Positions 4,259-23,955 of a DNA stretch of 36,601 bases are shown here, one piece after another (positions within the stretch are counted from its first letter, which is position 1; each line of letters begins with the position of its first letter). The notes beneath the pieces are model-generated. The model was not told the origin of the DNA and did no database searches. It worked only from the letters and a program-made list of their open reading frames with translations. Source of the stretch: an unicellular cyanobacterium SU2 (GTDB taxonomy: Bacteria; Cyanobacteriota; Cyanobacteriia; Cyanobacteriales; Microcystaceae); contig NEED01000076.1 in assembly GCA_002110465.1 (NCBI GenBank), positions 1 to 36,601 of the forward strand, read 5' to 3'. The translations under genes and the position numbers were made by a program.

Positions 4259-5328
4259 TTAACCAAATTCCCGTTTTTCCAAACGTAGTGCCGGATTATG
4301 CTGCCATCGGTCAGCAATATGAGCGTAGATGATGGTTGTTCTAGGGTCAGCATGGCCTAGTAAATCCTGAACTTGTCGCAAAGAGGCTCCCGCCCTTAAG
4401 GACAAGGTTCCGGCGGTATGTCTTAACGAATGTGCGCTGAGCTTTCGCCGTTGGGACTTATGCCGATTTTTTGGCCTTTTTTTCGCCTTTTTTTCCCGCT
4501 CTCTACTCTCCTTCCCCCCGATTTTCGGTTTTTTGGTCAGCTTTGGGGGCAACTCTTTTAACCCAATCTTCTGTAAATATTTGTCCACAATGCGCCGAAT
4601 AGATCGCCGACTCAACCGTTGCCCCAAGGTCCTATGAGCCACAGAAATAAAGATCGGGGTATCGGGTCCCCTTGTTTTCGCCGAGCCGTTAGGTATCGCC
4701 CAAGCAATTGGGCTAAATCGGGAGTTAACGGAACCACTCGAATGCTCCGTTTTGCCCAAACCCGCAGACCCACATTTTCCCCATCCTTGACAATATCCCC
4801 CACATTAACACGGTGCATTTCCACGGTGCGGCATCCCTCTAACACCATCACCGAAATTAACAGGCGATCGCGTAACGAATGAACCGTATCATCCACCGGC
4901 ATGGCATCAAGCAATTGGTACATTTCTGCGCTTTGCAGATAATTTATGCTGGCGGCGGGGTCTTTAACTTCCCGTGGCGGTTTTAATCGAATGGCGGGAT
5001 TGCTTAAAATATAACCGTTTTCGAGCAGGGCATCGTAAAAACGGCGCAAAACGCTCAGTTTCAGGGAGATGGTAGCTTGTTGGTATTGCTCTACCAACCA
5101 GTGACGATATTGCTTTAATTGGGCAAAGCTGGCTTCAATCGGGTGTATTTGTTGGGATTGACACCATCGGAGAAATTGCTTTATATGGGAGCGATAAGTT
5201 CGGATCGTGTCGTTGGCGGCTGCACCGTCCCCCACATCCGTCAATAAAAACTGATTAAAGAAGGCCAAAAACTGTTGTTCTTCAACCAGGATGAGTTTGG
5301 TTGGGGGGGTAGGACTCAGGTTGGACAT
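4259..5328 (-). pseudogene. Tyrosine recombinase (XerC/D-like), frameshifted
   Basis: The 5' frame (5328 down to about 4665) has the SAM-like N-terminal core-binding domain (residues 1-110) and the first catalytic Arg in EGCRTVEM (R167). The 3' frame (to 4259) holds HSLRHTAGTL (His-x-x-Arg), LGHADPRTTIIYAH (second His and the nucleophile Tyr). The two join if one base is restored in the CCC run near 4664-4666 (coding strand GGGACCCGAT), giving about 355 residues, a normal length. A basic Lys/Arg-rich insert lies between the catalytic Arg and the HxxR box. All catalytic residues survive in the two frames. Loss of a single base may be a true recent mutation or a sequencing error. A dif-like site lies 64 bases upstream. 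Confidence 0.8.
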
Positions 5329-5608: not shown

Positions 5609-6034
5609 TTATTCCCCCCAAAACTGATCAATGCGTTCTACATAATCTAATTGGGCAATAGATAATAGAATTTGTTTCCATTGTTTATTATCAGTCTCAC
5701 CAATGCAAAGATATTGACTATCTTGACAGCCAATTCTACCCGAACTTTGACGATAAATATTAATTGTGGGATCTATTGTTTGTATGGCTTCAACGGCTTG
5801 CTTATTGGCAGGAATACAAAACTCGTAACTTAGGTATCTTTTAGCTCCTGATGAACCAATTAAACCATCAGTAGAAATCTGGGAAATATCAAAAGTTATC
5901 TTATTTAGTATAGGGTCAGTTGTTAAATTTTGACTCAAGATTTTTAGGGGTGAAACCTGAATTAACAACATAAATATCAACAGTCCCAAAAACTGATAAA
6001 CTTGTCTTGAATTCAACAGAAATCCTAATTTCAT
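5609..6034 (-). CDS. Secreted hypothetical protein
   Basis: A 141-residue protein with a clear N-terminal signal or anchor segment (FLGLLIFMLLIQVSPLKIL, residues about 16-34) and a mature domain with three or four cysteines (YEFCIPAN, IGCQDSQYLCIGET). No enzyme motif was seen. It looks like a cyanobacterial lineage-specific periplasmic protein, perhaps stabilised by disulfides. It is divergent from the gene at 6098, with 63 bases between starts. Confidence 0.6.
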   Translation of the reverse strand: MKLGFLLNSRQVYQFLGLLIFMLLIQVSPLKILSQNLTTDPILNKITFDISQISTDGLIGSSGAKRYLSYEFCIPANKQAVEAIQTIDPTINIYRQSSGRIGCQDSQYLCIGETDNKQWKQILLSIAQLDYVERIDQFWGE

Positions 6035-6097
6035 AATTGTTTGCTCCTTTTTAACTAATGTTTAATACTCATCCTCATCCCAATCTTCATACTGACG

Positions 6098-6673
6098 ATG
6101 ATAAGCTTACAACAAATGCTTGATGCACTAGCCAGCAATAAAAACCTCTGTGATATTGGATATCAATATGCAGAATACGACTATCGTGGGTATTGTCTTT
6201 GGGTCATTGATTGTGTCCGTCATATTTTGCCCATAACCGAACGGTATCTTTCACCATCACACATCACTCAACTATCCACCTCACTTGACATGGCGGTAGA
6301 ATTTATTAACGGTGACACCGACATTGAGGCAGTTATCAGTGCAGCACAACGGACTCGACAAATAACCCAAGCCTATTATTCAGCGTCGGAGAAAATTAGG
6401 TGGGATGTCTCAGAAACCCTTGATGCCATCAACAATGCCATTGAACTGACATTACCCAATACATCGGTCTATCATGAAGATGTTTTGTCGGCGGCAGCCC
6501 GTGTAGCCTACTATGGCCACCTAGATGATGATGTCGATTCTCTTCGTCTGTCTCCATCGGACTGTAATAACACCTCGGAACTTCTTGGTTACTGCGAATC
6601 TAAACGGGAAACTGTATGGCAAAGAATGGCACTATCTACTCGGCTGCTTAAAGATGAATCAAAAAAATTATGA
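6098..6673 (+). CDS. Hypothetical all-helical protein
   Basis: A 191-residue, mostly helical acidic protein from ATG 6098. No family was recognised with confidence; the helical pattern and solitary setting next to a truncated minus-strand coding fragment (6674-6850) resemble immunity or antitoxin-like proteins beside decayed toxin genes, but that is only a positional guess. The central part has AAQRTRQITQAYY and the end has AARVAYYGHLDDD. Confidence 0.5.
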   Translation: MISLQQMLDALASNKNLCDIGYQYAEYDYRGYCLWVIDCVRHILPITERYLSPSHITQLSTSLDMAVEFINGDTDIEAVISAAQRTRQITQAYYSASEKIRWDVSETLDAINNAIELTLPNTSVYHEDVLSAAARVAYYGHLDDDVDSLRLSPSDCNNTSELLGYCESKRETVWQRMALSTRLLKDESKKL

Positions 6674-6850
6674 CTACTTAAAAACTTTTAAATAAATCGT
6701 TTCATACCATTGTTTTTGAGACGTTTCATCAATAGTTCCATAAGGAGGAAAAGCAGGATATTTTAACGTTTGATCCAATCGTATGTGCATCCAAGGAACC
6801 CCATGACCATGTGTATTACACCACACAATCTGCTCATCAATAATAGCTTA
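6674..6850 (-). pseudogene. C-terminal fragment of an unidentified protein
   Basis: On the minus strand a frame of 58 codons runs to TAG at 6674-6676 and encodes DEQIVWCNTHGHGVPWMHI, RLDQTLKYPAFPPYG and ETIYLKVFK. It has no start codon of its own, and stops lie immediately upstream. Composition (Trp, His, Gly, Pro clustering) is that of a folded domain rather than random translation, so it looks like the 3' end of a lost gene. The family was not recognised. Confidence 0.4.
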
Positions 6851-7959: not shown

Positions 7960-10200
7960 ATGTCTTCATCAAAGATAATTACTAACACTTCGACTTCTCC
8001 CAACATTAAACCTGAATATTTAACAGGAGTCATTGAACGCATTACCTTTCATGCAGAAGATACGGGTTACACAGTGGCTCGAATGCAGGTCAAAGGGTTC
8101 AAAGATTTAGTCACCATTGTCGGCAGTTTTCCGAATATTCAAGCCGGTCAAACGCTTCAATTACAAGGCAGTTGGTATAATCATCCTAAACATGGTCAAC
8201 AGTTTCAAGTTAGTCAATACAGTGAATCAAAACCAGCGACATTAACAGGCATTGAAAAATATTTAGGCAGTGGTTTAATTAAAGGCGTTGGACCAGTAAC
8301 AGCTAAACGCATTGTCAATCATTTTGGATTAGATACCCTTGATATTATTGAACAGGAAATAGAACGACTGGTTGAAGTTCCAGGGATTGGGAAAAAACGG
8401 GTCAAGATGATTCAAAAGACCTGGGAAGAACAAAAAGCAATTAAAGATGTGATGGTCTTTCTTCAAGGTCATGGGGTATCAACAACCTACGCCGTCAAAA
8501 TCTTTAAACAATATGGAGAAAATGCGATCTCAACTGTAACCGAGAACCCCTATCAATTAGCTCAAGATATTTATGGGATTGGGTTTCATACTGCCGATAA
8601 GATAGCAGTAAATGTAGGAGTATCTCCTAGGTCAAAATATCGCTACCAATCAGGACTGCTGCACGTTTTAAGTAAAGGGGCTGAAGATGGTCATTGTTTC
8701 CTTCCCTTATCCGAATTGGTGAATGAGGCCATTGAATTACTAAGTGTCGATGACCATGAAGCGGATGCTCAAACCATTGTTCAAATCACAGTGGAAATGA
8801 GGAACGCAGAGGAATTAATCGTTGAAGAAGTTGGTAAAATTCAACTCTGTTATCAACCTACGTTTTACTACACTGAACAAAATTTAGCTAAATTACTCCT
8901 AAAACAATTAGAAAACCCTGTTAAGGTTGACTTGCCCCGTGTAGAGAATTGGATACATCGTTATACCCAAAGTAAACGGATTAAGCTTTCACAACAACAA
9001 CTAGAAGCAGTAATGACCACAGCAGCTTCACGGGTGATGGTGTTGACCGGTGGACCAGGAACAGGAAAAACCTTTACTCAGAAAACTATTGTGGCACTGT
9101 GGCAGGCCATGGGTAAGAAAATTGGGTTAGCTGCCCCCACTGGACGCGCCGCGCAAAGACTGGGGGAATTGGCAGGACTCGAAGCTAAAACCGTACATCG
9201 GTTACTCGAATTTGACCCAGCTTTCCGTGGGTTTAAACGGGATGCTGATAACCCCTTGCCTTTTGATGCGGTCATTGTTGATGAAGTTTCGATGTTGGAT
9301 CTATTCTTGGCTCATTCTTTGATGAAGGCGATCTCAAATGATACGCAATTATTAGTGGTGGGGGACGTGGATCAGTTACCTTCGGTTGGCCCAGGTAAAG
9401 TGTTAGCTGATTTAATTGAATCAGGGAAAATTCCCGTGGTGCGATTAACCCAGGTATTCAGACAGGCGGCCAGTAGTGCCATTATCCGCAATGCCCACCA
9501 AATTAACCAGGGTCATTATCCTCACCTTGAAACTATCTCAGATAATCCTAAAAGTGATTGTCTTTGGCACAACGGAGGAACCAAACCCGAACATACCGTA
9601 CAAGTTATTGGTGAACTACTCACAGATTTTATTCCTAGACAGGGCTTTGATCCAACCTCCGATGTACAGGTACTATGTCCCATGACACGGGGACTGGTAG
9701 GAACTCGTAATTTGAACCAAGTCTTGCAGCAGCTTCTTAATCCTTCCTCTCCTGAAAAACCAGAAATTACTAGGGCAGGAATGATCTTGAGAGTGGGCGA
9801 TAGAGTAATTCAACTCAAGAATGATTATAACCGAGAAGTTTTCAATGGCGATTTAGGTATAGTTACAGCCATCGACCCCGTTGAAAAATCGGTGATGGTT
9901 CAAGTTGATGATCGGGAAGTGGAATATGACTATGCAGATTTAAACGAGATTTCTTTAGCTTGGTCGATTTCAATCCATAAATCCCAAGGGTCTGAGTATC
10001 CCGTTGTCATCCTCCCTGTGTCAACGTCTCATTATATTATGTTGTCACGGAATCTGATTTACACAGGGTTAACCCGTGCTAAACAATTGGCCATCATTGT
10101 GGGGTCAACCAAGGCCATCGGCATTTCTGTCAAACAAGGTCATCAAAAACAACGATATACACGGTTAGTAGAAAGATTAGGTGAGAAAACAACAGTTTGA
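7960..10200 (+). CDS. recD2: RecD2-like ATP-dependent DNA helicase
   Basis: A 746-residue SF1B helicase of normal RecD2 length. An OB-like N-terminal region (TGVIERITFHAEDTGYTVARM) and helix-hairpin-helix repeats (IKGVGPVTAKRIV, LVEVPGIGKKRVKMI, GIGFHTADKIA) lead to the motor: Walker A GGPGTGKT near residue 364-371, motif Ia APTGRAAQRL, Walker B VIVDEVSMLD, motif III VGDVDQLPSVGPGKVL, and the C-terminal SIHKSQGSEYPVVIL and TRAK boxes. It unwinds DNA 5' to 3'; without RecBC it acts in repair or plasmid and conjugative replication. It faces the same way as the replication genes that follow. Confidence 0.92.
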   Translation: MSSSKIITNTSTSPNIKPEYLTGVIERITFHAEDTGYTVARMQVKGFKDLVTIVGSFPNIQAGQTLQLQGSWYNHPKHGQQFQVSQYSESKPATLTGIEKYLGSGLIKGVGPVTAKRIVNHFGLDTLDIIEQEIERLVEVPGIGKKRVKMIQKTWEEQKAIKDVMVFLQGHGVSTTYAVKIFKQYGENAISTVTENPYQLAQDIYGIGFHTADKIAVNVGVSPRSKYRYQSGLLHVLSKGAEDGHCFLPLSELVNEAIELLSVDDHEADAQTIVQITVEMRNAEELIVEEVGKIQLCYQPTFYYTEQNLAKLLLKQLENPVKVDLPRVENWIHRYTQSKRIKLSQQQLEAVMTTAASRVMVLTGGPGTGKTFTQKTIVALWQAMGKKIGLAAPTGRAAQRLGELAGLEAKTVHRLLEFDPAFRGFKRDADNPLPFDAVIVDEVSMLDLFLAHSLMKAISNDTQLLVVGDVDQLPSVGPGKVLADLIESGKIPVVRLTQVFRQAASSAIIRNAHQINQGHYPHLETISDNPKSDCLWHNGGTKPEHTVQVIGELLTDFIPRQGFDPTSDVQVLCPMTRGLVGTRNLNQVLQQLLNPSSPEKPEITRAGMILRVGDRVIQLKNDYNREVFNGDLGIVTAIDPVEKSVMVQVDDREVEYDYADLNEISLAWSISIHKSQGSEYPVVILPVSTSHYIMLSRNLIYTGLTRAKQLAIIVGSTKAIGISVKQGHQKQRYTRLVERLGEKTTV

Positions 10201-10590: not shown

Positions 10591-10938
10591 TCACGAAGCT
10601 ATCAAACGAGAATCTGAATCAGAGCCGATTAAATTATTATCTTGCGTTAAGCGCATCCCTGCTAAGTAGACAACTCTACCTAACTCCGACGAATCCATCT
10701 CTTTTAACAAAGCTTCCAAATCCACCTTTAAAGAAGAACCCAACAAAAGAGAACAAAAGTATTGTTTAGCCTCAGAGGGCAAAGGTTCCATTAACTTCTC
10801 CAAAGTGTCTGTTTGCACTTCTTTCCCATTGCGAAACCTAGAAATCATTTGGGCATTCACCCCCGACACTTTACTTAACCATGATGCGTTTATCCCAAAT
10901 TTTTTAAGAGTTTTATCAAAGCTGCCACCAATATCCAT
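10591..10938 (-). CDS. XRE-family repressor-like protein
   Basis: A 115-residue protein with an N-terminal helix-turn-helix at about residues 15-42 (NASWLSKVSGVNAQMISRFR then NGK), typical of XRE/Cro-CI proteins, and a short helical C-terminal part that could dimerise. It is divergent from the replication gene at 11059, and the 120 bases between them hold nested palindromes (10943-10997). By layout it resembles the immunity or copy-control repressor of a phage-like replicon. An AAGG site precedes ATG 10938. Confidence 0.8.
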   Translation of the reverse strand: MDIGGSFDKTLKKFGINASWLSKVSGVNAQMISRFRNGKEVQTDTLEKLMEPLPSEAKQYFCSLLLGSSLKVDLEALLKEMDSSELGRVVYLAGMRLTQDNNLIGSDSDSRLIAS

Positions 10939-10942
10939 AACC

Positions 10943-10997
10943 TTGCTTAATTGGTTTATAATAGTTGCTTAAGTTGCTCAATAAAGCAACGAAGCAA
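10943..10997. promoter_or_regulatory. Palindromic operator region of the XRE repressor
   Basis: GTTGCT (10973-10978) and AGCAAC (10985-10990) form a palindrome with a 6-base centre. It is nested inside TTGCTT (10965-10970) and AAGCAA (10992-10997), and another TTGCTT lies at 10943. A minus-strand -10-like TATTAT/TATAAA overlaps this block. Several copies of one half-site in a divergent promoter region point to cooperative repressor binding and autoregulation. Confidence 0.6.
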
Positions 10998-11058
10998 AGT
11001 ACATTTGCTAACTCATATTATGCCACAGCCTTGAAAACCCTTTGGGAACATAACAACA

Positions 11059-11778
11059 ATGACACAAACAAAGATTGATGGTAAGTTCTACCCATTGCAA
11101 AATGAAGAATGGCTCAAAGCCACCCAAGAACTGAGATATGCAGAAATTCGGGTATTGTACCATCTACGAACCATTGATCCCTTTGGACAGTCCGATACCC
11201 GAATCAAAGTAACGGACATCGCTAACATCACAGGCTTAAAGAAAGGAACTGTCTCTAAAGCTCTTCATACTCTCTCCGAAAAAGGCTATATCAATTTAGA
11301 AATTGTTGAGGCTATTGTTAGCATCAATTCGTTTCCCATAAGAAACAAGGTTTCTCACAAGAAACAGAGTTTCCTACAGGAAACACTCACGCACCACAGG
11401 AAACCTCCGCGCACTGTAGGAAACGATCGCCGGCTAGAACCCGCATCAGCAATAGATTCTAAACCGCCTAAGAATAATAAGATCTCTCTCTCAGACTCTC
11501 TCTCAGAAGAAGAGAGAGAAAAATTTTCTGCCTTTTGTTTAAAGAAAGCCAGTGAATTACCTAAACCCCCTGTATTAGTTGAGAAATGGATCTCAAAACA
11601 CCTTGCTGAACTGTTAGAAGCGTTTAAAAAAGAATCGGCACAAAAACCTAACCCATCAAAAACCACCTATACCCCTGAAGAGATTGACAAAATGTGGAAT
11701 CAGCAAAATAAATCCAAAAATTCTTTCTCTCGACCAAAAATTGATTCTGATGACTTGAAAACCCCTCCTCCTAATTAG
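11059..11778 (+). CDS. Winged-helix replication initiator-like protein (lambda O-like)
   Basis: A 239-residue protein. The N-terminal 80 residues form a helix-turn-helix of MarR or Rep type (KVTDIANITGLKKGTVSKAL then LSEKGYINLE). The middle is low-complexity and basic and is encoded by the iteron cluster 11331-11424. The C-terminal part is helical and charged with a Pro-rich tail. N-terminal DNA-binding domain, in-gene iterons and a helicase gene directly downstream are the organisation of lambda gene O-type initiators, whose C-terminal part recruits the helicase. The role is inferred from this organisation; sequence similarity to lambda O itself was not seen. It could instead be a plasmid copy-control regulator. 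Confidence 0.6.
   Translation: MTQTKIDGKFYPLQNEEWLKATQELRYAEIRVLYHLRTIDPFGQSDTRIKVTDIANITGLKKGTVSKALHTLSEKGYINLEIVEAIVSINSFPIRNKVSHKKQSFLQETLTHHRKPPRTVGNDRRLEPASAIDSKPPKNNKISLSDSLSEEEREKFSAFCLKKASELPKPPVLVEKWISKHLAELLEAFKKESAQKPNPSKTTYTPEEIDKMWNQQNKSKNSFSRPKIDSDDLKTPPPN
11331..11424. repeat. Five iteron-like repeats inside the initiator gene (candidate origin)
   Basis: Three units are palindromes: GTTTCC-CATA-AGAAAC (11331-11346, one mismatch), GTTTCT-CACA-AGAAAC (11350-11365) and GTTTCC-TACA-GGAAAC (11369-11384). Two more right halves GGAAAC lie at 11399-11404 and 11419-11424. The right halves are spaced 19, 19, 20 and 20 bases. A strand-asymmetric pyrimidine then purine-rich stretch with a TCTC/GAGA hairpin follows (about 11484-11525). 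This regular helical-phase array is what an initiator binding region looks like. Confidence 0.65.
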
Positions 11779-11853: not shown

Positions 11854-13176
11854 ATGTTTGAAAAAATCCCGCCACAAAATATTGAAGCGGAGGAATCGAT
11901 CTTAGGTGGCTGTCTTCTTGACCCACAGAGTTATTCGAGGATTGAGGGGTTAATTACGGCTGACAGCTTTTATGTTCAAACCCACAGCCAAATCTTTGCG
12001 GCGATCTCAGCAGTCGCATCTTCTCAACAACCAACGGACTTGATAACGGTTAAAAGTTGGTTAGAAGACCATCATCAACTCGAAGCGATTGGAGGCATTG
12101 ATAAACTGGCTCAGTTGCTCGATAGAACGGTTTCTGCTATCAATATTGACCGCTATGCGCTTTTAATTGAAGATAAGGCTCAGCGTCGCCGATTAATCGC
12201 AGCAGCTTATTCCATTCTTGAATTAGCCAACGATAACACCATTGAATTAGAGGTTGTTTTTGACCAAGCCGAAGAGACGATTTTAGAACTGCGTCGTCAC
12301 AATAAGTCTGAGGAGTCAGGATTATGGGCTGATGTCACCACTCGACAACTTAACGACATTGAGCGCACCAATTTTGACGAACAATCATCAGACATTATTC
12401 AAACAACGACCCTTTATGACTTTGACAAAATAACTGCTTTTGAGCGAGGGGATTTAGTGGCCTTGATGGGTGCATCAGGAACAGGGAAAACCGCCTTGGC
12501 TTGCTGTTTAGCTTATCAATATGCTGTGAGTGGCATTCCTACTTTCTTTTGGTCATTAGAGCAACCCGAAAAGCAAATTTGGGCTAGGATTCAAGCTAGT
12601 CATTCGGGGATTGATAGCCAATTATTAGGACGTAAGCGTAGTCAACTTACCGAAGAAGACCGTAAGCGTTTAATGAGTGATTTGGATGTTTCGATCTCTC
12701 TTCCCATTTATTTACATTCACAAAAGGATTCTTTATCAACTCATCTCAATGAAGCTGAGCAAAAGTTTCGTCAGTTAGGGCATCCCCCAACCGCTATTTT
12801 AATAGTTGATTACTTACAACTGTTAGCGGGTGCTGACCCCATTCTCATTGATAACTGGACAATTCGCCTTAAAGAACTTTCCCTCTCTAAAAATCTACTA
12901 ACCATTGTTTTAGTACAACCAGAGGAGTTGAGTAAGCGTAGTAATAAACGTCCCACCATAGGAGATATTTCTTACTGCAAAACGGCCAAACAACATTTTG
13001 ACATCATTCTTGGCCTCCATCGAGAAGCTTATTGGAATCAGGATTATCCCAACCCCAATGAGGTAGAGATAACAACCCTTAAACACCGTCATCTTCCTTT
13101 CCCTGAAAAATGCCATATTCTCGGATTTTTTGAATATTGTCGTTTTGTTTCCCTAGAAACAAGAGAGGATAAATGA
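11854..13176 (+). CDS. dnaB: DnaB-like replicative helicase
   Basis: A 440-residue protein with the DnaB N-terminal domain (residues about 1-105, opening PPQNIEAEESILGG, a DnaB signature), a linker, and a RecA-like ATPase with Walker A GASGTGKT (206-213), Walker B AILIVDYLQLL (about 313-323) and motifs near EQPEKQIWAR and the C-terminal hydrophobic strand. A hexameric 5'-3' helicase at a plasmid or phage fork is expected. The usual Arg/Gln-rich sensor region after Walker B (normally SRxLK...LSQLSR) reads LVQPEELSKRSNKRPTIGDI, somewhat divergent. It follows the initiator-like gene by 75 bases with a GGAGG site and overlaps the next start by 4 bases. Confidence 0.88.
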   Translation: MFEKIPPQNIEAEESILGGCLLDPQSYSRIEGLITADSFYVQTHSQIFAAISAVASSQQPTDLITVKSWLEDHHQLEAIGGIDKLAQLLDRTVSAINIDRYALLIEDKAQRRRLIAAAYSILELANDNTIELEVVFDQAEETILELRRHNKSEESGLWADVTTRQLNDIERTNFDEQSSDIIQTTTLYDFDKITAFERGDLVALMGASGTGKTALACCLAYQYAVSGIPTFFWSLEQPEKQIWARIQASHSGIDSQLLGRKRSQLTEEDRKRLMSDLDVSISLPIYLHSQKDSLSTHLNEAEQKFRQLGHPPTAILIVDYLQLLAGADPILIDNWTIRLKELSLSKNLLTIVLVQPEELSKRSNKRPTIGDISYCKTAKQHFDIILGLHREAYWNQDYPNPNEVEITTLKHRHLPFPEKCHILGFFEYCRFVSLETREDK

Positions 13177-14372
13177 AGTCAGAAGTCAAAAATCAAATAA
13201 CCGACCCTTGGCATCATTCCCAATCTTGGCAAGCTTACGGGCATCAGTGGAAGTTTACTTATTGCTCTTTGACCGCCAACTACACCATCAAGAATGATGA
13301 TAGCTCCCTAATCTTGAAAATCCCTATCGTAGAAACTAACCATTTCCTATGTCCCCAAGCGTGGTTAGACCATTGGGCTAAGTCAAAAGAAGGCCGATCA
13401 AAGTTAAAACCTAGCCAACAACCAGAACAACCTTCCTTATTCTCTGAACAAGGGAAAAATAACCAAGCCCAGAAAGAACCTATCACGGTTGAAGTAGTAG
13501 ACAACCAACCTACTCAAAGCCAAGAACTAACAGACGATGAGGCAAGAGATCGCCTATTTTTAGAACGCAAAGTTGAACGAGCATTTTATGAAGCAGGTAA
13601 AGCTTTACAGGAATTACGGGATAGACGGCTGTATCGTAGCAGTCATGCCAATTTCGAGAGTTACTGTTTAGAAAGATTCGGTTTTAAACGGAGACACCCT
13701 TATCGATTAATTGACGCTGCTCAAGTTTTTGATAATCTGATAGAAATGTGTCCGAACTGGACACAAAATGAAAATGTGTCCGAAGTTGAAAGTCACGAAG
13801 CGAGTGAGGAATTACAAATGTGTCCGAACTGGACACAAATACTTCCTACAACAGAGTATCAGATTCGACCTTTGACTTGCCTTGATCCAGAACAACAAGC
13901 CGAAGCCTGGACACAAGCAGTTGAAAACGCAGGGGGTAAAGTGCCTAGTCATCGCATCGTCAAAAGCATTGTAGACCAAATCAGAGAACGCACCAAAATC
14001 CCTAACCCCTGGAGAGTTGGGGAAGTCGCCACCATCATCGTCAAAGATAACCCTGATTTACGGGGTAAAGGTGGTTGTTGGGCAATCATCAGTGAAGTTC
14101 ATGATTTTAGCTGTACTGTCAAGCTTTGGGACGGGGAATATCAAGTCAGAATTGAGAACCTGAAAAAGTTGTCTTATGAGACGACTGATAAAGAACAAAA
14201 GTTTTTTAGGGAATTGAGCGATCGCCTTCGGGGCATCTTCGATGATCGCCTATCAAAAATCCAATTGAATGAAGTTGAAAAACCGACAAAGGACTTTCTG
14301 GCAGGACTAGGGAAAATAGATCGCCCTTATTTGACTGAGTTGGAGGAAAGGTTGTTGAGGGTTCTTGACTAA
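13173..14372 (+). CDS. ParB-like plasmid DNA-binding protein
   Basis: A 399-residue protein coupled to the helicase by an ATGA overlap. A low-complexity N-terminal half leads to a conserved helical segment (EAGKALQELRDRRLYR, FESYCLERFGFKRRHPYRLI) seen in many cyanobacterial plasmid proteins, then RPLTCLDPEQQAEAWTQAVE and VPSHRIVKSIVDQI, which resemble ParB/KorB-type helices. The C-terminal part (WRVGEVATIIVKDNPDLRG) looks like a small beta-barrel. Two copies of the peptide MCPNWTQ are encoded by in-gene palindromes. Probable role in partition or copy control; this is inference from context, and a ParA is encoded 9 kb away with its own RHH partner. Confidence 0.55.
   Translation: MKSEVKNQITDPWHHSQSWQAYGHQWKFTYCSLTANYTIKNDDSSLILKIPIVETNHFLCPQAWLDHWAKSKEGRSKLKPSQQPEQPSLFSEQGKNNQAQKEPITVEVVDNQPTQSQELTDDEARDRLFLERKVERAFYEAGKALQELRDRRLYRSSHANFESYCLERFGFKRRHPYRLIDAAQVFDNLIEMCPNWTQNENVSEVESHEASEELQMCPNWTQILPTTEYQIRPLTCLDPEQQAEAWTQAVENAGGKVPSHRIVKSIVDQIRERTKIPNPWRVGEVATIIVKDNPDLRGKGGCWAIISEVHDFSCTVKLWDGEYQVRIENLKKLSYETTDKEQKFFRELSDRLRGIFDDRLSKIQLNEVEKPTKDFLAGLGKIDRPYLTELEERLLRVLD
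13747..13837. repeat. TGTGTCC-N5-GGACACA palindromes within the ParB-like gene
   Basis: Perfect 7-5-7 palindromes with centre GAACT lie at 13747-13765 and 13819-13837, 72 bases apart, and a half-site TGTGTCCGAA is at 13775-13784. Each full copy encodes CPNWT within MCPNWTQ. Identity extends beyond what the codons require, which suggests selection on the DNA, for example as a centromere or operator bound by the encoded protein. Confidence 0.55.
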
Positions 14373-14593: not shown

Positions 14594-16063
14594 ATGAGTA
14601 CCTGTTTAATTCTTCAAGTTTTAGGGAATAGTGACGTTATTTGTGATAATAAACAAGGGGCTGAAGTATTACAAGGGCATACAGTAGAAGATGTCCAAGA
14701 ACAAGCAGAGTGGAATGATGAGGACTTTGCTAATGGAAAAAGTAATGTTGATTTTCCCTTAATTACCAAAATTATCAAGCACTATCAACAAGATTATCAG
14801 ACCTACTTAGGGGTTATTTTAACCAATCAAAGCGAATGGATCAAGCATCAAGATATTGCAGACGCACAGTGGAAAGAAATTATTAGTTCTGATGGCCATT
14901 GGTGGGAGAATATCTTAACGGAATGGTGTCGAAGGAACAAAATTAATTTCTATGCTTTACCTCTTTCTATTGATGAAACAATTCCTAAAGGGGTAGCAGA
15001 TTGGGAAGGGATCGCTTCTCTTCTCGAAAATTATCTTAATCAGACAATTGTTCGAGATAAAAATAGTTTTAAATTAAAGAATCAAGAAATAACGATTGAT
15101 AAAATTATTATTCAGTATAGTAGTGGAACCCCTGCCTTAAGTAGTGCCTTATACTTATGGGGAATCGAAAAAAAATTAGCTAATATGCCCATTGAATTTG
15201 CTTATTTATCTCGTTCCAATTCAAGGGTAGATTCTCATGAAGGGAAACATTGGCAATGGCGACTAAAAGTGCCACAAATTGAACAATTATTGGATATTCA
15301 GGACTTGGCTGGTGTTTTAACTTTATTAGAAGATCATCCTAATAAATCGTTAAAAAAGATTGTTCGTAAGTTAGACTGGGCAGTTTCTTTTAATTTAAAA
15401 CAATTACAGTTAGGACTGAATCCTAAACAAAGCATCATTGAACGGATTGCGATCGCCCTGTGGAGTGAGGAAGCTTTCCGCAAAAGGGGACAATGGATGC
15501 ACTGGTATTTGAGAGTAGCAGGAGCCTTTGAATTAGCCATTTTATCTTTAGTCGAATATCAGGGACAAGGTAACTATGAATGGCAAAGAGAGGGAGATAA
15601 AGTTCTTTTAAAGGAGCTAACTAGCAACGAAGAACTACAATACAAAGCTGGCGTATTAACTAAATTATTATCCGGGGGACAATATCAAACGTCGTTTTTG
15701 CGACAAGGACAAAACATTTCAGTCTCCTATGCTTGCCCTCCCGTTAATGATAGTCAGTGGAATCAATTTAAGCAGTTTTATATAGGGAATGGATGGAAGT
15801 TAAAAGAAGGAGTTTATCAATCTTTTGCTGATTTACGCAATAACTTATATCATGCCCTTCAAGGAGATATGATTGATGAAATTTTAGACCTAAAAACCCA
15901 AAATTTAAACTCTGTAACCCACCCATCTCATCCTTCTCAAGTTGCCATTGAAAAACTAAATTATCTTCTCGAACTTGCTAATTTATCCCAAGACGTAAAA
16001 AATGCCATCAGCAAATATGAAATATGGATACAACAGGTTAAGGAGGGTTTAATCAATGAGTAA
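14594..16063 (+). CDS. CARF-HEPN ribonuclease of the type III CRISPR locus (Csx1/Csm6-like)
   Basis: About 489 residues; the frame opens at TTG 14588 but MSTCLILQVLGNSDV from ATG 14594 fits the first CARF strand. The CARF ligand-loop motif SSGTPALSSALYLW lies near residues 178-190 of the longer frame, and a HEPN catalytic motif R-x4-H is seen in LRNNLYHAL (about R417 and H422). Such proteins are RNases switched on by cyclic oligoadenylate made by Cas10. The protein is long for Csx1 and its middle region is unassigned. Its stop overlaps the cas10 start by 8 bases, so it is part of the operon. Confidence 0.8.
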   Translation: MSTCLILQVLGNSDVICDNKQGAEVLQGHTVEDVQEQAEWNDEDFANGKSNVDFPLITKIIKHYQQDYQTYLGVILTNQSEWIKHQDIADAQWKEIISSDGHWWENILTEWCRRNKINFYALPLSIDETIPKGVADWEGIASLLENYLNQTIVRDKNSFKLKNQEITIDKIIIQYSSGTPALSSALYLWGIEKKLANMPIEFAYLSRSNSRVDSHEGKHWQWRLKVPQIEQLLDIQDLAGVLTLLEDHPNKSLKKIVRKLDWAVSFNLKQLQLGLNPKQSIIERIAIALWSEEAFRKRGQWMHWYLRVAGAFELAILSLVEYQGQGNYEWQREGDKVLLKELTSNEELQYKAGVLTKLLSGGQYQTSFLRQGQNISVSYACPPVNDSQWNQFKQFYIGNGWKLKEGVYQSFADLRNNLYHALQGDMIDEILDLKTQNLNSVTHPSHPSQVAIEKLNYLLELANLSQDVKNAISKYEIWIQQVKEGLINE

Positions 16064-17111
16064 TTTTAATTGGCTACCCTCTCAAGCGAATTTATATAAT
16101 GTTTTACCTGATAATCCGAGTCAATTATCCACTCATCCTGTTAGTGGTCAATGGCAAACATCAGATTATTTAAAGAATCAATACTGGTGGGGAGGAGGTG
16201 CAACCCAAGAAAGTTATCAACAATTAATGGATTGTGACGATCCGACCTTAACGCAAATTGGTATTATTACGTTTGGCCCCGTACAGTCCTTTTTAGGAAG
16301 TGGTCAACGCTTACGAGATTGGGCGGTTGCGTCATGGTTATGTCATTATTTATCAGGGGTTTTAATCTACCGATGGGAACAACTAGGAGGACGAGTTTTA
16401 TTACCACTTCATCGTACTGTCCCGTTTGTTCAATGGTTAAAAGGTGAAGCCGTTGATGAACGATTTTGGCAAGCAGAATTGCCTAATATTGTTACTGGTT
16501 TATTCCCTAATAATCAGGGATGGTTAGAAAATATTCAGCAACTGGTTATTAGCGAATGGGGAGGACTATTAAGAGAATTAGAACAAGCTTCCATTCATTT
16601 TGAACAAGGCTATTTAAACGGGATTGGTTGGCGAGTTATTCACGAAAATCATCGTTATTTATGGTCAGTTTATACGGCTTCTACTGCGTTAAACCTACAA
16701 ACCCTTGACGATGACTTAAAAACCCTTTATCAAAGCATAGAATCTCAGAAAATTAGTCGTCATTGGCAGGGACAATGGTGGGGAGGTCGAACCAGTCCCA
16801 GTGCCGGATATTTATCACAGTGGCATCCCGGCTTAAAACCCATTGCGTCAGGCGGATTATGGGGTTTACCCGAAGATAATATCAAGCAATGGTGGGAAAA
16901 TGCTGCTCAAGATAGTTCTTTATCGGGGTTATTTTCTAAAAGCGATCGCCTTAACAGTTTAGAAGTAGTTAAACGACTCGCTTCTGTTCCTGATATTATT
17001 CAACCCACCTTAAAACAATTATGGCAACTGTCGCCCCCTCCCTGTCCTTGGGGTAGATTTCCAGATCGGAGTGCGATCGCCGCCGCTTGGATTCCCTCTC
17101 AGGAACATTAA
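16056..17111 (+). CDS. cas10: Cas10/Cmr2, N-terminal part (split by frameshift)
   Basis: 351 residues containing the first palm entry of Cmr2: IGIITFGPVQSFLGSGQRLRD and WAVASWLCHYLSG. No HD nuclease domain precedes it; only about 70 residues stand before the palm, so the DNase domain of typical Cas10 is absent. The frame ends with CPWGRFPDRSAIAAAWIPSQEH and then stops. The homologous sequence continues in the frame starting 17087. Restoring one C in the CCC at 17094-17096 would join IP to LSGTLNDL. Translationally coupled to the CARF gene. Confidence 0.82.
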   Translation: MSNFNWLPSQANLYNVLPDNPSQLSTHPVSGQWQTSDYLKNQYWWGGGATQESYQQLMDCDDPTLTQIGIITFGPVQSFLGSGQRLRDWAVASWLCHYLSGVLIYRWEQLGGRVLLPLHRTVPFVQWLKGEAVDERFWQAELPNIVTGLFPNNQGWLENIQQLVISEWGGLLRELEQASIHFEQGYLNGIGWRVIHENHRYLWSVYTASTALNLQTLDDDLKTLYQSIESQKISRHWQGQWWGGRTSPSAGYLSQWHPGLKPIASGGLWGLPEDNIKQWWENAAQDSSLSGLFSKSDRLNSLEVVKRLASVPDIIQPTLKQLWQLSPPPCPWGRFPDRSAIAAAWIPSQEH

Positions 17112-18238
17112 ATGACTTAAACGAGCTATTTTATAGTGATAACTTGCAAACAGCCTGGGGAATGCCGAGAGTTGACCGAAATCCTCAACAATTTGCCCAT
17201 CCTCGTGCTTTAGAACGAAGAAATATCGTCGATGAATATGTGGCAGACTGGGAAGAGTTTCGTCCCCAAGGTTGGGAAAGTCCCATTGAATGGACAGTGG
17301 GATGGCGAGGCGATGGGGATAAAATGGGGGAATGGTTATCAGGGAAACAATACACCGAAAAACGGTTAAATTGGGCGCAATGGCATCTTGATTCTGATTT
17401 AATTCAACAACATCAACTAAATATCCAACCTCCTCAAGTCCCTAACCGTTTTAAAAAGATGGATCTTCCCCATATTCTTGATTTATCGGTTTTATTTAGC
17501 TATTGGAATCAATTACTTTATCCTTTGACTGAAGAACACCACGATGGGAAAGTTATTTTTGCTGGAGGGGATGACTTTTTACTGCTTGGCCCCTTAACAG
17601 AAGTAATACCCTTAACCTCGGATCTTCATCATCTCTGGATGGGTGAGCCAACACCCTTAACTAGCCCTCTAGAAGAGGAAAGTGACGGATGGGTTAATTA
17701 TCAGGATCAAATTTATCCGATACCAGGAAAACAGATGAGTTTTAGCTTAGGAGTGGTAATTGCTCAACGAAGAATCCCTCAGTCCCTTTGGCATCGCGGT
17801 TTAAATGATGCTTATAAACAGACCAAAAATCAAGGGCGAAATCGTGTGTGTGTTCGGGTTCTGTTTAATAGTGGACAAGCTTTAGAATGGGTCTGTCCTT
17901 GGCCATTGTGGCATTGTTTAATGGCAGTAGAACCAGTAGAGACTGCCCCTACTCCCCTAAATGTTTGGGAGAAATTATTAGCTTATCTCGAAGGCACTCA
18001 TTTTTCTTGGGACTCTTCCCCCTCCCAACCGAGTAAACTTCTAGATACCCTCTGGCAAAGTGTAGGATTGCCCTTATCTTGGCAAAAAATTCAAACCCTT
18101 CTCAACCAACAGAGCGATCGCCGTAACCTCAATGAAGTTGTCGGGTCTTGGATCTGGTGGCAAAATTGGATTTCCTTGAGAGCTTTTTTAGCCCGCCAAC
18201 AAAGAGAACGAGAGAAATGGCTAGAAAAGCTAAAGTGA
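17087..18238 (+). CDS. cas10: Cas10/Cmr2, C-terminal part with GGDD cyclase motif (split by frameshift)
   Basis: 383 codons from a TTG at 17087 that is probably not a real start. It carries VGWRGDGDKMGEWLSG (about 72-86) and the second-palm motif FAGGDDFLLLG (GGDD at 160-163), the active site that makes cyclic oligoadenylate, followed by the helical C-terminal domain. Together with the upstream piece it gives about 730 residues, short for Cmr2 because the HD domain is missing. If the frameshift is real the effector would lack an intact Cas10 unless ribosomes slip back one base or the two parts reassemble. Confidence 0.82.
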   Translation: MDSLSGTLNDLNELFYSDNLQTAWGMPRVDRNPQQFAHPRALERRNIVDEYVADWEEFRPQGWESPIEWTVGWRGDGDKMGEWLSGKQYTEKRLNWAQWHLDSDLIQQHQLNIQPPQVPNRFKKMDLPHILDLSVLFSYWNQLLYPLTEEHHDGKVIFAGGDDFLLLGPLTEVIPLTSDLHHLWMGEPTPLTSPLEEESDGWVNYQDQIYPIPGKQMSFSLGVVIAQRRIPQSLWHRGLNDAYKQTKNQGRNRVCVRVLFNSGQALEWVCPWPLWHCLMAVEPVETAPTPLNVWEKLLAYLEGTHFSWDSSPSQPSKLLDTLWQSVGLPLSWQKIQTLLNQQSDRRNLNEVVGSWIWWQNWISLRAFLARQQREREKWLEKLK

Positions 18239-18320: not shown

Positions 18321-19295
18321 ATGACATGGTTTAGTATTACTCCCTCAGCCCCCATTACCATTGGAAATTTAACCCCAGTTGGCCAAAATAGCGGACAAGT
18401 CGGGTGTCGTTTTCCCCCCAATGGACATCATCTTGCCGGATGTCTTAACCTACCCACTCATTGTCAACTGTGGGGTCCGTTTTGGTGGAAGTTTCCTTCC
18501 CTTTATGTGGTTTTACCCCAAATCGTTTATACTCTTGATGTTGATCGAGGACCGTTGGCCTTACCAGATAATTTTTATCGAATGCAGTGGGTTTCAGGTC
18601 AATGGCAAGTCCAACCTCAGCATCAAGAGCAACCCATTGAACTGATTGGAGGACGCTATCTGATTGAAGCAAACACGTTAAAAAGCTTTTGGTATCAAGA
18701 ACATTGGAATAGTAATAATGATTTAGCTCATTTTCCTTGGACACATCTTACCCTCAGTCACAATAGCAGGGAAGATTATCAGGTGAAGGATGAAGGAGGA
18801 TTTTTTGCGGAGATGACTACTTTGTTAGATCCGGAATGGGCGATCGTTGTCAAAATAAAAGGTAATTACATCCCCCCTGTCTGGAGTAGTTTAGGCGCAG
18901 GGGGAACACCGGTGGTCATTCAATCAGAAAGAAGAGGACAACGCTACGACTGGTTAGGGGGTTCGTTTGATAATTCTACAGGAAATTCTACAGGGGGCAT
19001 TTTACTAACAGGGGCATTATGGCAACAAGGAAAGCAAAAAAGCTCAGTTCCCTATCCCAATCTTCCGATTAAAGCCTATGCAGCAGATTTACCTATTCCT
19101 TGGCAATCTTGGACAAAAGTAAGAGATCGTCATCATCCTGGGCAAAAGGTACAGGTATTGACCCCTGGGGAATGGTTAACCCCAGCAGGGGCAGTTTATT
19201 TATGGGAAGATGATTCTTCTCTCTTACAATGTGGCCCGTTATCTGATGCTTATCATCGAGATGCTTTGGGTTACGGACATTTATGGTTATTTTGA
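18321..19295 (+). CDS. cmr3: Cmr3-like RAMP (Cas5 group), type III-B
   Basis: The frame opens at TTG 18294, but ATG 18321 gives MTWFSITPSAPITIGN, a typical Cmr3 opening, and 324 residues. Further marks are LAGCLNLPTHCQLWGPF after the first strand and the C-terminal YHRDALGYGHLWLF, a glycine-rich end like that of Cas5-type RAMPs. In the complex it would cap the crRNA 5' tag next to Cas10. It follows cas10 by 82 bases and precedes cmr4 by 10 bases. The family is assigned from position and these motifs; similarity is moderate. Confidence 0.7.
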   Translation: MTWFSITPSAPITIGNLTPVGQNSGQVGCRFPPNGHHLAGCLNLPTHCQLWGPFWWKFPSLYVVLPQIVYTLDVDRGPLALPDNFYRMQWVSGQWQVQPQHQEQPIELIGGRYLIEANTLKSFWYQEHWNSNNDLAHFPWTHLTLSHNSREDYQVKDEGGFFAEMTTLLDPEWAIVVKIKGNYIPPVWSSLGAGGTPVVIQSERRGQRYDWLGGSFDNSTGNSTGGILLTGALWQQGKQKSSVPYPNLPIKAYAADLPIPWQSWTKVRDRHHPGQKVQVLTPGEWLTPAGAVYLWEDDSSLLQCGPLSDAYHRDALGYGHLWLF

Positions 19296-19305
19296 GGACA
19301 AAACA

Positions 19306-20079
19306 ATGACAATTCAATGGTTAATTTGTCAAGAACCCGTTCATATTGGTGGCGCAGATAGTGATAGTAGAGGCAATAATAACCCTATTTATCGCTTACC
19401 TGATCGAACACCTGCCATTCCGGGGAGTTCTTTAAGAGGTGCTTTACGCGAAGCTGCTGAAAATAGTGATTCCGTCAGTCAATTTGTTAAAGATTGGTTT
19501 GGCGGAGAGAATCAAGATATTAGTCCGGGGGGCATTTCTTTAGGATGGGGTTGGGCGTTATGGTTTCCCGTTCATGTTTTGGGATATGGTAGTTGGTGGG
19601 TTACTTGTCCAAAATGGTTGAATTATTATCAACGATTAAACCAAGGAACTCCTTTTAATTTTCAGACTGGTCAAGTGTATAGCACTGATTCAACTTTAAC
19701 CGGTCAAAATGTTTATCTCAGATGGCTTAAGCTTAATAATATTCAACACCATGATCAGGCTCAGAATTCTTTGCCCATGCCAGAGATAGTACAAAGCGAT
19801 CGCTGTTTAATTGTTCCTGATACCAGTATTAACTTATTCGTTGATATGGGATTAGTTCGTCAACCCAGGGTTAGTTTATTAGATGAACCACAAGAGAATG
19901 GTAACTTGGTCGATAACTTATTTTCTGTAGAAGGATTGCCCCCAGGGTCGGTCTTTTTCTTTGCCTGGACAACTCGAAAACAGGTTAATAATTTACCTAA
20001 ATGGAACACTTTTTTGAAAGGAGAACATTACTTAGGAGGACTCTGGAGTGTCGGTTATGGAAGAATTGAGATTAGTTAA
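19306..20079 (+). CDS. cmr4: Cmr4-like RAMP (Cas7 group), type III-B
   Basis: 257 residues from ATG 19306; the frame is open to 19210 but that part overlaps cmr3. RAMP marks are EPVHIGGADSDSRG, IPGSSLRGALREAAE and a C-terminal LGGLWSVGYGRIEI. Cmr4 forms the crRNA-binding backbone and its loop Asp cuts target RNA; the DSDS in the first loop contains candidate Asp residues. Some relatives of this length are Cmr6, but the two-RAMP protein at 21365 better fills that place. Confidence 0.7.
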   Translation: MTIQWLICQEPVHIGGADSDSRGNNNPIYRLPDRTPAIPGSSLRGALREAAENSDSVSQFVKDWFGGENQDISPGGISLGWGWALWFPVHVLGYGSWWVTCPKWLNYYQRLNQGTPFNFQTGQVYSTDSTLTGQNVYLRWLKLNNIQHHDQAQNSLPMPEIVQSDRCLIVPDTSINLFVDMGLVRQPRVSLLDEPQENGNLVDNLFSVEGLPPGSVFFFAWTTRKQVNNLPKWNTFLKGEHYLGGLWSVGYGRIEIS

Positions 20080-21364: not shown

Positions 21365-22900
21365 ATGACTTCTCTTCCCGTCGAACTTCCACAATGGTAT
21401 CAAGTTGACCCAGAAAATGAGCGCAAAGGATGGACTCCTAAAACAACTGATATTGTTGAAAATAACGAAAATAAACCCATTAATTACGCATGGAATGGTG
21501 CAATCAGTCCTCAAGGCGCAAAAAATCCCACTGTCAGTCTTAAACGTCTGAAAATTCTTAGCCCGATTCAAGTAGGAGGGGGAAGCTTACCAGAAGGCAT
21601 GATTTTACCTGCTACCATCGGAGGCGTTCCTTGTATCCCCGGCTCAAGTATCAAAGGCGCATTTCTCAGTTATTTACGACAACAGTGGTCAACAATGGAT
21701 TCAGAAGAACAGAAATTCTGGCGGAATTTGACAGAAAATAATTGCCAACAATGGCAACCTCGTAAAATTCGTTTTGAGACGATTTTGTTAAAAAATGTTA
21801 AGCCTTATCCCCTAAACCCTCAACAATCTTGGCAAGTTTTTAACGATGGAGACAAGAAATTAGGCATACAGTGGCAAGTTTCTCCTAAACATCCCCCTGG
21901 ACCTGGCGCAGATAAATTTTCCTTACAAGTGTCTCTGAAACCTTCCATAAATCAACAACAGAGACAATGGTTAGAAAATCGTCTAACTCAATTATTAAAA
22001 GACAAAGGAATAGGCAGGGGAACAGCGTCTGGTTTTGGTCGTTTAGCATCCACGACTCCCAATGGACGATGGGAAATACAATTAACAGGAATGAAACCCT
22101 GTTATCAACCCCATAAACCCGATAAAGATAGAAGTAAACACCAAAATGGTTTATATCGTTGGACTCCTCAAGTTTTACGAGCTAATTTAAGAAGTCACTT
22201 CACTCGTCTTGCTTTAAGTATGTTACCAAAAGAGCAAGCTATTCGATTAAGCGATCTCATATTTGGTGGGTTAGGAAAGCCCGCTCAATTAACTTTAACA
22301 AGTTTTCTAAAATGTGTTGATCCTGCCAGAAACACACCTAACAATAATAGTTATGCGAATATTCCCGCAAAAGAAGCTCATTCAACATGGTTAATTAATG
22401 TCGATTGTAATTCTCGATTTCAAGGGCTAATTCAAGATTTATTAGTGTTTTCTAGTCGTATAGGCGGTTTGGGGGCAGGATGGCGCAGACCTCCTCATCA
22501 ATTAACTCGTTTCAATGGTTATCGAGGAAGTGAGTTTACAGTAACATCTGTCAATTCTCAAGGAACAATTACAGAAGAACCGATTTCTGTGTTAATACAG
22601 CGACTTTTGGCAACAATTAAACAATTAGCTACTGATAACGGATTTAATTGTTTGGCTCAATTTCAACGAGTGGGTAGCACATTTTTAAGTATTTGGCAAG
22701 GACAACAGGAACAATGGAAATGTATTGTGCATGATGTCTGTAGTACAAAAGCAAAGAATCGACCTTCTTGGTGTGGAGATTCTCAGGATCGGCCTTCAGG
22801 CTATGCAGTTCGTCAATATGATGATGATTGTTTGATCACTGTCTTTGATGTAAAGGTAGAAGTCACTCTTCAGGAACAAAAATTTAATAAAATTTGGTAG
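21365..22900 (+). CDS. Two-module RAMP protein: Cmr6-like plus probable Cmr1-like
   Basis: A 511-residue protein with two RAMP units. The first (about 55-240) has LSPIQVGGG, the Cmr6-type CIPGSSIKGAFLSYL (91-95 IPGSS) and a glycine-rich loop GIGRGTASGFGRL (215-227). The second (about 262-440) has YRWTPQVLRANLRSHFTRL, LIFGGLGKPAQLTL (298-311) and SRIGGLGAGWRRPPH (364-378), the pattern of Cmr1-type R-LR-F and GGxGAxxRR motifs. No separate cmr1 or cmr6 is present in the window, so the fusion supplies both. These subunits cap the 3' end of the crRNA filament and help bind target RNA. It is separated from the other cmr genes by the array. Confidence 0.72.
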   Translation: MTSLPVELPQWYQVDPENERKGWTPKTTDIVENNENKPINYAWNGAISPQGAKNPTVSLKRLKILSPIQVGGGSLPEGMILPATIGGVPCIPGSSIKGAFLSYLRQQWSTMDSEEQKFWRNLTENNCQQWQPRKIRFETILLKNVKPYPLNPQQSWQVFNDGDKKLGIQWQVSPKHPPGPGADKFSLQVSLKPSINQQQRQWLENRLTQLLKDKGIGRGTASGFGRLASTTPNGRWEIQLTGMKPCYQPHKPDKDRSKHQNGLYRWTPQVLRANLRSHFTRLALSMLPKEQAIRLSDLIFGGLGKPAQLTLTSFLKCVDPARNTPNNNSYANIPAKEAHSTWLINVDCNSRFQGLIQDLLVFSSRIGGLGAGWRRPPHQLTRFNGYRGSEFTVTSVNSQGTITEEPISVLIQRLLATIKQLATDNGFNCLAQFQRVGSTFLSIWQGQQEQWKCIVHDVCSTKAKNRPSWCGDSQDRPSGYAVRQYDDDCLITVFDVKVEVTLQEQKFNKIW

Positions 22901-23307: not shown

Positions 23308-23955
23308 CTAACTACCAAACAGATATTGATATAACATCATAGTTTCAGCGATCGCCTTACCATCTTTAGGCTTGACTTCTGTTACAGCTAGACCCTGCGC
23401 CGAAGCATTTCTAAAGGCTTTACGATTTCCCCAAGAAGCATTAAGATAAGTGAGTTGATTAATCTCAGACGCGATCGCCGCCGCTTCATCATTATCCGTT
23501 CCCCTGGGGTCAGCACGGTTCAAAAAGCAGTAAGCTTTTAAGTCAGGGTTAAATGCGGATGCCTCTTCAATGAGTTCCCCCACCTTCTCCAAAGTCCAAA
23601 CATCAAAGCTGGCAGGTAAGAATGGAACTAAATAAATGGTGGCAATAGATAAAGCAGCCCGTTGACCCGCCGTATCCCTTCCCCCTACATCAATAATCAC
23701 ATCTTCATACTTATCCGCTAATCGGAGAGTATCAGTCCTAACCGCCGGTCCTTTGAGTTGTACCGAAGTGTAACCCGCCCCTCCTGATGAAGAAGAAGTC
23801 TCATTACGAATTAAAGTAAAATCCGTAGCCGTTTGTTGGTCATCTGCATCAACCAGCAACACATCATAACCAAGACTTGCTCTAATTACTGTCAGGGTGG
23901 TGGCGACGGTGGACTTGCCTACTCCCCCCTTAATCCCACCACAAACTAATATCAT
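23308..23955 (-). CDS. parA: ParA-family partition ATPase (type Ib-like)
   Basis: 215 residues with the deviant Walker A KGGVGKST (9-16), switch I-like LLVDADDQQTATDF and Walker B EDVIIDVGGRD. The protein has no N-terminal DNA-binding domain, matching type Ib ParA. It would form ATP-dependent gradients on the nucleoid and move the plasmid via the RHH-bound centromere. The gene precedes the RHH gene in one operon. Confidence 0.9.
   Translation of the reverse strand: MILVCGGIKGGVGKSTVATTLTVIRASLGYDVLLVDADDQQTATDFTLIRNETSSSSGGAGYTSVQLKGPAVRTDTLRLADKYEDVIIDVGGRDTAGQRAALSIATIYLVPFLPASFDVWTLEKVGELIEEASAFNPDLKAYCFLNRADPRGTDNDEAAAIASEINQLTYLNASWGNRKAFRNASAQGLAVTEVKPKDGKAIAETMMLYQYLFGS

Follow-up and report, generated by a model that had tools for sequence, protein, structure and literature searches.

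A cyanobacterial plasmid-type initiator gene that very probably encloses its own replication origin

The window examined here, a stretch of 36,601 bases, is the entirety of contig C76 in a 5.24 Mb assembly of 82 contigs, and comparison of the contig's ends found no overlap. It contains a probable initiator gene (11059-11778, forward strand) encoding a 239 aa winged-helix protein, followed on the same strand by a gene for a 440 aa DnaB-like replicative helicase (11854-13176); the latter, proposed in the initial annotation, was borne out by N-terminal (DnaB N, 5e-29) and C-terminal (DnaB_C, 7e-28) Pfam domains. Four genes of the assembly pass the DnaB_C cut-off, this being one of them and distinct from the top-scoring DnaB, which lies on contig C69. 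The end of the helicase gene is overlapped by a 399 aa ORF (13173-14372, forward strand) with no Pfam match at E 0.1, an overlap suggesting that it belongs to the operon. Diverging from the initiator is a small gene for a 115 aa helix-turn-helix (HTH) protein (10591-10938, reverse strand), a putative repressor of the initiator operon. This corresponds to the divergent XRE repressor originally suggested, the assignment to XRE being weak (Pfam HTH_26, 21.0 bits relative to a cut-off of 22), and the palindromic operators suggested alongside it are represented by an inverted repeat (10940-10959 and 10981-11000, arms 80% complementary) within the divergent promoter/operator gap (10939-11058), which may act as an operator.

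A RecD2-type helicase (7960-10200) is encoded upstream of the replication operon. Elsewhere in the window are type III CRISPR genes (16056-18238, 19210-20079, 21365-22900 and 34237-35937), a set comprising Cmr2/Cas10 domains spread across two overlapping ORFs and two RAMP proteins, with a Cas4-Cas1 fusion on the strand opposite to the others; a ParA-type ATPase locus (23311-23955); an integrase-like gene (4612-5328); and a Siphovirus Gp157 gene. The relatives of C76, together with its type III CRISPR and ParA genes, would fit a cyanobacterial plasmid.

The initiator was modelled from its single sequence as a winged helix (approximately residues 8-90), a disordered linker (83-143) and a helical C-terminal part from about residue 150, the model being poor (mean pLDDT 61, pTM 0.30). 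A Foldseek search with this model gave no PDB match at E ≤ 0.001 among 663, and a profile search of solved structures returned 93 sequences at E ≤ 1, none of the 60 listed being named a replication initiator. Pfam matched the protein only to HTH families and weakly to unrelated ones, with no DEXD/helicase-like domain and no RepA_N domain, for which the only signal in the assembly is a sub-threshold one on contig C23. The best place in the assembly for the lambda O profile, Phage_rep_O, is this initiator, yet it scores 13.4 bits (E 0.42) relative to a cut-off of 28.7, and similar signals below the cut-off were found in 12 of 14 control genomes; nor did Phage_rep_O figure among the Pfam matches of the protein at E 0.1.

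The phased repeats reported inside the winged-helix coding region are indeed present in this gene, and the modelled disordered linker coincides with the stretch they encode. The motif GAAAC starts at 11342, 11361, 11380, 11400 and 11420, giving the spacing of 19, 19, 20 and 20 bp originally described, and GTTTC starts at 11331, 11350 and 11369. The claim of five palindromes holds only in part: exact 16 bp palindromes, GTTTC-N6-GAAAC, make up three of the five units (11331-11346, 11350-11365 and 11369-11384, all forward strand), and the last two, on the side of the array facing the second element described below, consist of the right half AGGAAAC alone (GGAAAC at 11399-11404 and 11419-11424, forward strand). 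Of 20,000 synonymous-codon shuffles of the gene, one produced three or more palindromes and 13 produced a chain of five or more GAAAC motifs at 18-21 bp, the motif having been chosen post hoc, once the array had been seen. All chains of at least three GAAAC or GTTTC motifs within the 36.6 kb are part of this one array. Measures less dependent on this choice gave weak signals: a motif-free lag statistic applied to the single gene (38 of 70) was matched in 11 of 300 shuffles, and a scan of the whole window for the palindrome with one mismatch found four matches versus 2.0 expected. Both the array and the second element of the window are among the weaker ones of the family.

Relatives found by tblastn are located on plasmids of Microcystis, Fischerella, Calothrix, Nostoc, Trichormus, Planktothrix, Picosynechococcus and others, the closest being 47% identical over 78%. 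Sinorhizobium accounted for 50 of 78 plasmid records, its listed entries matching over a short stretch in the HTH only, and 22 regions were taken for analysis. A profile built from 19 members found relatives in 48 of the 388 genomes of the class (E 1e-12). Genome contigs, when scanned, yielded one short match (47 residues, 40%, from a Clostridia MAG), which was set aside. Profiles of the family match phage replication-initiator PHROGs best: phrog_270 (replication initiation protein) was matched by 11 of the 19 members (best E 7e-10) and the O-like phrog_678 by six, with PF13730 matched by 12 (best 1.4e-08). Complete circular plasmids, among them pAQ5 (gene 5674-6717) and Trichormus plasmid B, carry family genes; these two have no further annotated replication initiator and many hypothetical genes, and PLSDB replicon clusters have been assigned to several of the plasmids with a family gene. 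Eight members (L033, L035, L048, L054, L065, L069, L070 and L074) are instead located on contigs of 3.5-7 Mb, possibly as integrated elements or chromosomal initiators. In counts from one-sequence queries, which are probably too low, a DnaB-like gene is directly downstream in 20 of 67 cases, such that an adjoining helicase is not general, and a gene resembling the window's HTH gene diverges upstream in 26 of 69. Eight proteins encoded downstream of members lacking DnaB, seven from L011, L015, L016, L022 and L021 and the eighth from L003, had no match among the PHROGs at E 0.01.

Several initiators are immediately preceded by a paralogue-like gene (L016, 3442-3993; L045, 953-1498; L059; L031, 4001-4783), which encodes the same winged helix and then a module with the sequence GRIDLLTxxEIIEVK; the module, which we take to resemble a PD-(D/E)XK nuclease, gave no such match in Pfam. 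A 171-base ORF in pAQ5 (L013, 2571-2741), also present in L026 and L027, is labelled a predicted ACT-82 beta-lactamase at 100% identity, probably an annotation artefact given that the ORF is too short.

In-gene arrays are a property of the family. In 58 of 80 family genes, the array exceeded all 300 protein-preserving shuffles, always with a lag of 17-22 bp (mostly 20) and located mid-gene, downstream of the start codon; in the other 22 it did not exceed them all. The 80 genes, some of which are paralogues or fragments, omit the duplicates L032, L034, L064 and L067 and any match starting after profile position 30 or ending before position 80. Since 20 is not divisible by three, the repeated DNA is read in all frames, from which it follows that what is conserved is the DNA rather than the peptide. 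The observation named beforehand as counting against an origin was that of homologues retaining the peptide without the phased repeats; the reverse was found, with the array retained in 58 of 80 genes as both the peptide and the iteron sequence vary. Iterons of the GTTTCC/GGAAAC type are shared by the window, Microcystis and Calothrix 336/3, and other types are TGTTGC/GCAACA, GGTGTG/CACACC, TGTCGC/GCGACA, TCTCA/TGAGA and TTCTGG/CCAGAA. Some arrays have a spacing of 18 or 21 bp, multiples of three (L012, 4310-4417; L021; L025; L038), and hence encode tandem peptide repeats.

The iterons vary together with the recognition helix of the protein encoded around them. From 69 genes (array reached in no more than 30 of 300 shuffles; lag 17-22; at least 130 aa), 52 non-redundant ones were retained, among which iteron similarity correlated with recognition-helix similarity (Mantel r = 0.503, p = 0.0002, kinship ignored). 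With the rest of the winged helix held constant the partial r was 0.385 (p = 0.0002), compared to 0.127 for the rest of the winged helix with the recognition helix held constant; these statistics all ignore the tree. Control coding DNA flanking the array had no positive link with the helix (0.019 on the 5' side, -0.081 on the 3' side). The idea arose from the first loci, before the remainder were fetched, and the 33 held-out later loci gave r = 0.607 (partial 0.382), the first 19 having given 0.447. The segment KKGTVSK, the recognition helix, was the best of all seven-residue windows of the aligned domain (median partial r 0.059); the exact limits of the helix window used for the correlation had been fixed post hoc. 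Among helices of the class that has Gly/Ser as residue 63 and Ser/Gly as residue 66, Lys67 is accompanied by more GTTTC in 6/6 genes and Arg67 by more GTTGC/T in 15/16 (the exception, L054, having neither), a rule derived from the same data and counting both near-duplicates L022 and L029. The reading of G by Arg is usual chemistry. By contrast with the helix, the C-terminal 50 residues had no link to the iterons (r = 0.014, p = 0.39; 27 genes, again including both near-duplicates), and in L014, L017 (pNe_3), L018 (pn3) and L019 (pNOS7524.01) C-terminal parts that are 82-92% identical accompany winged helices of 36-72% identity and unlike iterons. Four loci (L023, L025, L030 and L031) look as though one cassette had taken over from another: after a first, initiator-like piece comes a complete second initiator frame, which has an array of its own and a recognition helix unlike that of the first.

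Immediately 3' of the array is a second element, in which AGACT-type words at steps of approximately 10 bp are followed by ACTCTCTCAGA and then by a CTCTCTC/GAGAGAG dyad. It was assessed against 200 synonymous shuffles in 30 non-redundant genes, drawn from 36 that could be protein-anchored out of 77. These contained 63 AGACT words (shuffle mean 11.6, maximum 20); CTCTCAG occurred in 26 of them (1.6, maximum 6), dyad arms of at least six in 19 (1.9, maximum 6), and third-codon-position identity was 0.549 (0.319, maximum 0.337). Judged from these alignments, the element is conserved beyond codon need in the 30 genes. CTCTCAG is found in 37 genes overall, in some of them outside the element. A 35-base pattern of the element occurred in five of 291 genomes, every place being within a family gene found by the profile, and the reversed control pattern had no match in the same 291. 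The copy on contig C30 of the window's own assembly fits the family pattern with no mismatches; that of the window (11467-11518, forward strand) is degenerate and was missed even at three mismatches, though it retains the dyad (CTCTCTC at 11498-11504, GAGAGAG at 11512-11518). The element could be a candidate site of unwinding or helicase loading. AT content supports an unwinding role only weakly: AT3 across the family is 0.620 versus 0.554 (p 0.0006; 31 genes, some mis-anchored), and the window copy is 53% AT versus 61% in the remainder of the gene, and so not AT-rich.

The host assembly harbours three family genes (C76, C30 and C47) with different iterons, their pairwise similarities being 0.000, 0.101 and 0.000. 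Across six organisms there are eight same-cell pairs, seven of low similarity and one (L058/L078) at 0.381, above the 90th percentile. As random pairs average just 0.108, these values demonstrate no avoidance between the iterons of one cell.

The reading favoured here, held with considerable confidence, is that 11059-11778 is the initiator gene of a cyanobacterial plasmid-type replicon, enclosing its origin and built as a modular system with an exchangeable specificity cassette. Comparison of the family members establishes the repeats, the DNA-level constraint, the covariation of helix and iterons and the modularity; binding, unwinding, helicase recruitment, origin activity and repression may be pictured as follows. 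Dimers of the N-terminal winged helix would bind the iterons, phased at 20 bp, that lie midway along the protein's own gene, and the strands would open, or the helicase load, at the second element with its AGACT-type words and dyad. The C-terminal domain would recruit the helicase, in this case the DnaB of the adjoining gene, and members without a DnaB gene of their own would use that of the host, with the divergent HTH protein limiting initiator expression. The exchangeable cassette would then consist of the iterons and the recognition helix, and the constant part of the second element and the C-terminal domain.

That the winged-helix protein is solely a transcription regulator, with the in-gene repeats as its operators and replication starting elsewhere, appears quite unlikely. 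Its top sequence matches are indeed regulators of the MarR/IclR type, as for any winged helix, but the arrays are mid-gene, past the start codon, a second constrained DNA element lies behind them, a replicative helicase is the neighbour in the 20 of 67 cases already noted, and phage replication-initiator PHROGs are the best match of the family profiles. Centromere arrays are also phased repeats, and the ParA-type ATPase encoded in the window could favour a parS-like partition or incompatibility site bound by a partition protein, for instance that of the ParA locus; however, the iterons vary in step with the recognition helix that their own gene encodes and the ParA gene is 12 kb distant, making this the least credible of the alternatives, with a very small probability.

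The phage replicon originally suggested fared less well than the features on which it was based. A lambda-type origin recently acquired from a phage or phage-plasmid would account for a layout identical to that of the lambda type, for the family's matches to phrog_270 and phrog_678, and for the integrase-like and Gp157 genes. Nevertheless, the close relatives are on plasmids: the window initiator had no match among 50,697 phage records, two single-protein scans of viral contigs, sensitive to close relatives only, found none, and none of the 28 ORFs scanned, out of 71 in the window, showed a phage structural family. Recent phage acquisition is therefore regarded as highly improbable, and any phage link would be a distant one, persisting in the PHROG initiator profiles. 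Of the proposed lambda-type origin, what stands is the presence of iterons in the initiator gene, the adjoining replicative-helicase gene and a putative O-like mode of working; the phage setting does not. GC skew was rejected as an origin marker. The minimum in the window is at 13535, 2.2 kb from the iterons, with an amplitude that is not significant, and minima in six relatives fall anywhere, the significant one of pAQ5 being opposite the iterons.

Returning to the plasmid initiator with its enclosed origin, it is conceivable, if somewhat short of probable, that a single chassis serves cyanobacterial plasmids at large: a helix-iteron base code would set specificity, cassettes would be exchanged on an invariant C-terminal domain, and in place of a classical AT-rich unwinding tract there would be a novel kind of constant second element, with AGACT words phased at about 10 bp and a dyad, allowing related plasmids to coexist in one cell. 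The coexistence of many plasmids without incompatibility in cyanobacterial cells is described as poorly understood in one study (PMC10899382). An initiator gene bearing its own address could make plasmid compatibility predictable from sequence, and for well-known plasmids, pAQ5 among them, the family provides candidate origins. With DNA and reader in one gene, it may also form a natural data set for protein-DNA specificity, and the second element raises directly the question of how such origins open. A literature search, mostly at abstract level and covering papers outside subscription, found no report on this initiator family.

Among known systems, the gene order is like that of phage P22, in which the O-like initiator gene 18 is followed by gene 12, encoding a DnaB-type helicase; P22 is a phage, unlike the cyanobacterial family. 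PMC10899382 describes CyRepA1, CyRepA2 and CyRepX1/2 as cyanobacterial plasmid initiators coexisting in one cell; in that account they possess helicase-like DEXD domains, unlike the window initiator in Pfam, and the words iteron, winged and DnaB are absent from its main text. At ori-lambda, as set out in PMC7466680, the product of the initiator gene, O, binds iterons located centrally within that gene, and an unwinding region follows them. The present family likewise has phased iterons within the initiator gene, but differs in scoring below the Phage_rep_O cut-off, in its plasmid setting, in iterons that vary between members and in the helicase gene itself adjoining, where lambda has the loader P. 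For RepA_N of pSK41, PMC5703833 reports that an N-terminal winged helix binds boxes central in rep, the origin-encoded centre being a linker, and for the hybrid pPR9 that an N-terminal domain and origin were swapped onto a conserved C-terminal domain, the HTH being of the pfam13730 type. Origin-type boxes in the centre of the gene, encoding what is modelled as a linker, are a likeness to RepA_N, and the apparent cassette swap onto a constant C-terminal part, along with the PF13730 matches in 12 of 19 members, to pPR9 so described; the differences are the lack of a RepA_N match in the window initiator, the cyanobacterial hosts, the helicase in the operon of some members and the shared second element. 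The family would work like both lambda O and RepA_N, with domain matches placing it in neither group.
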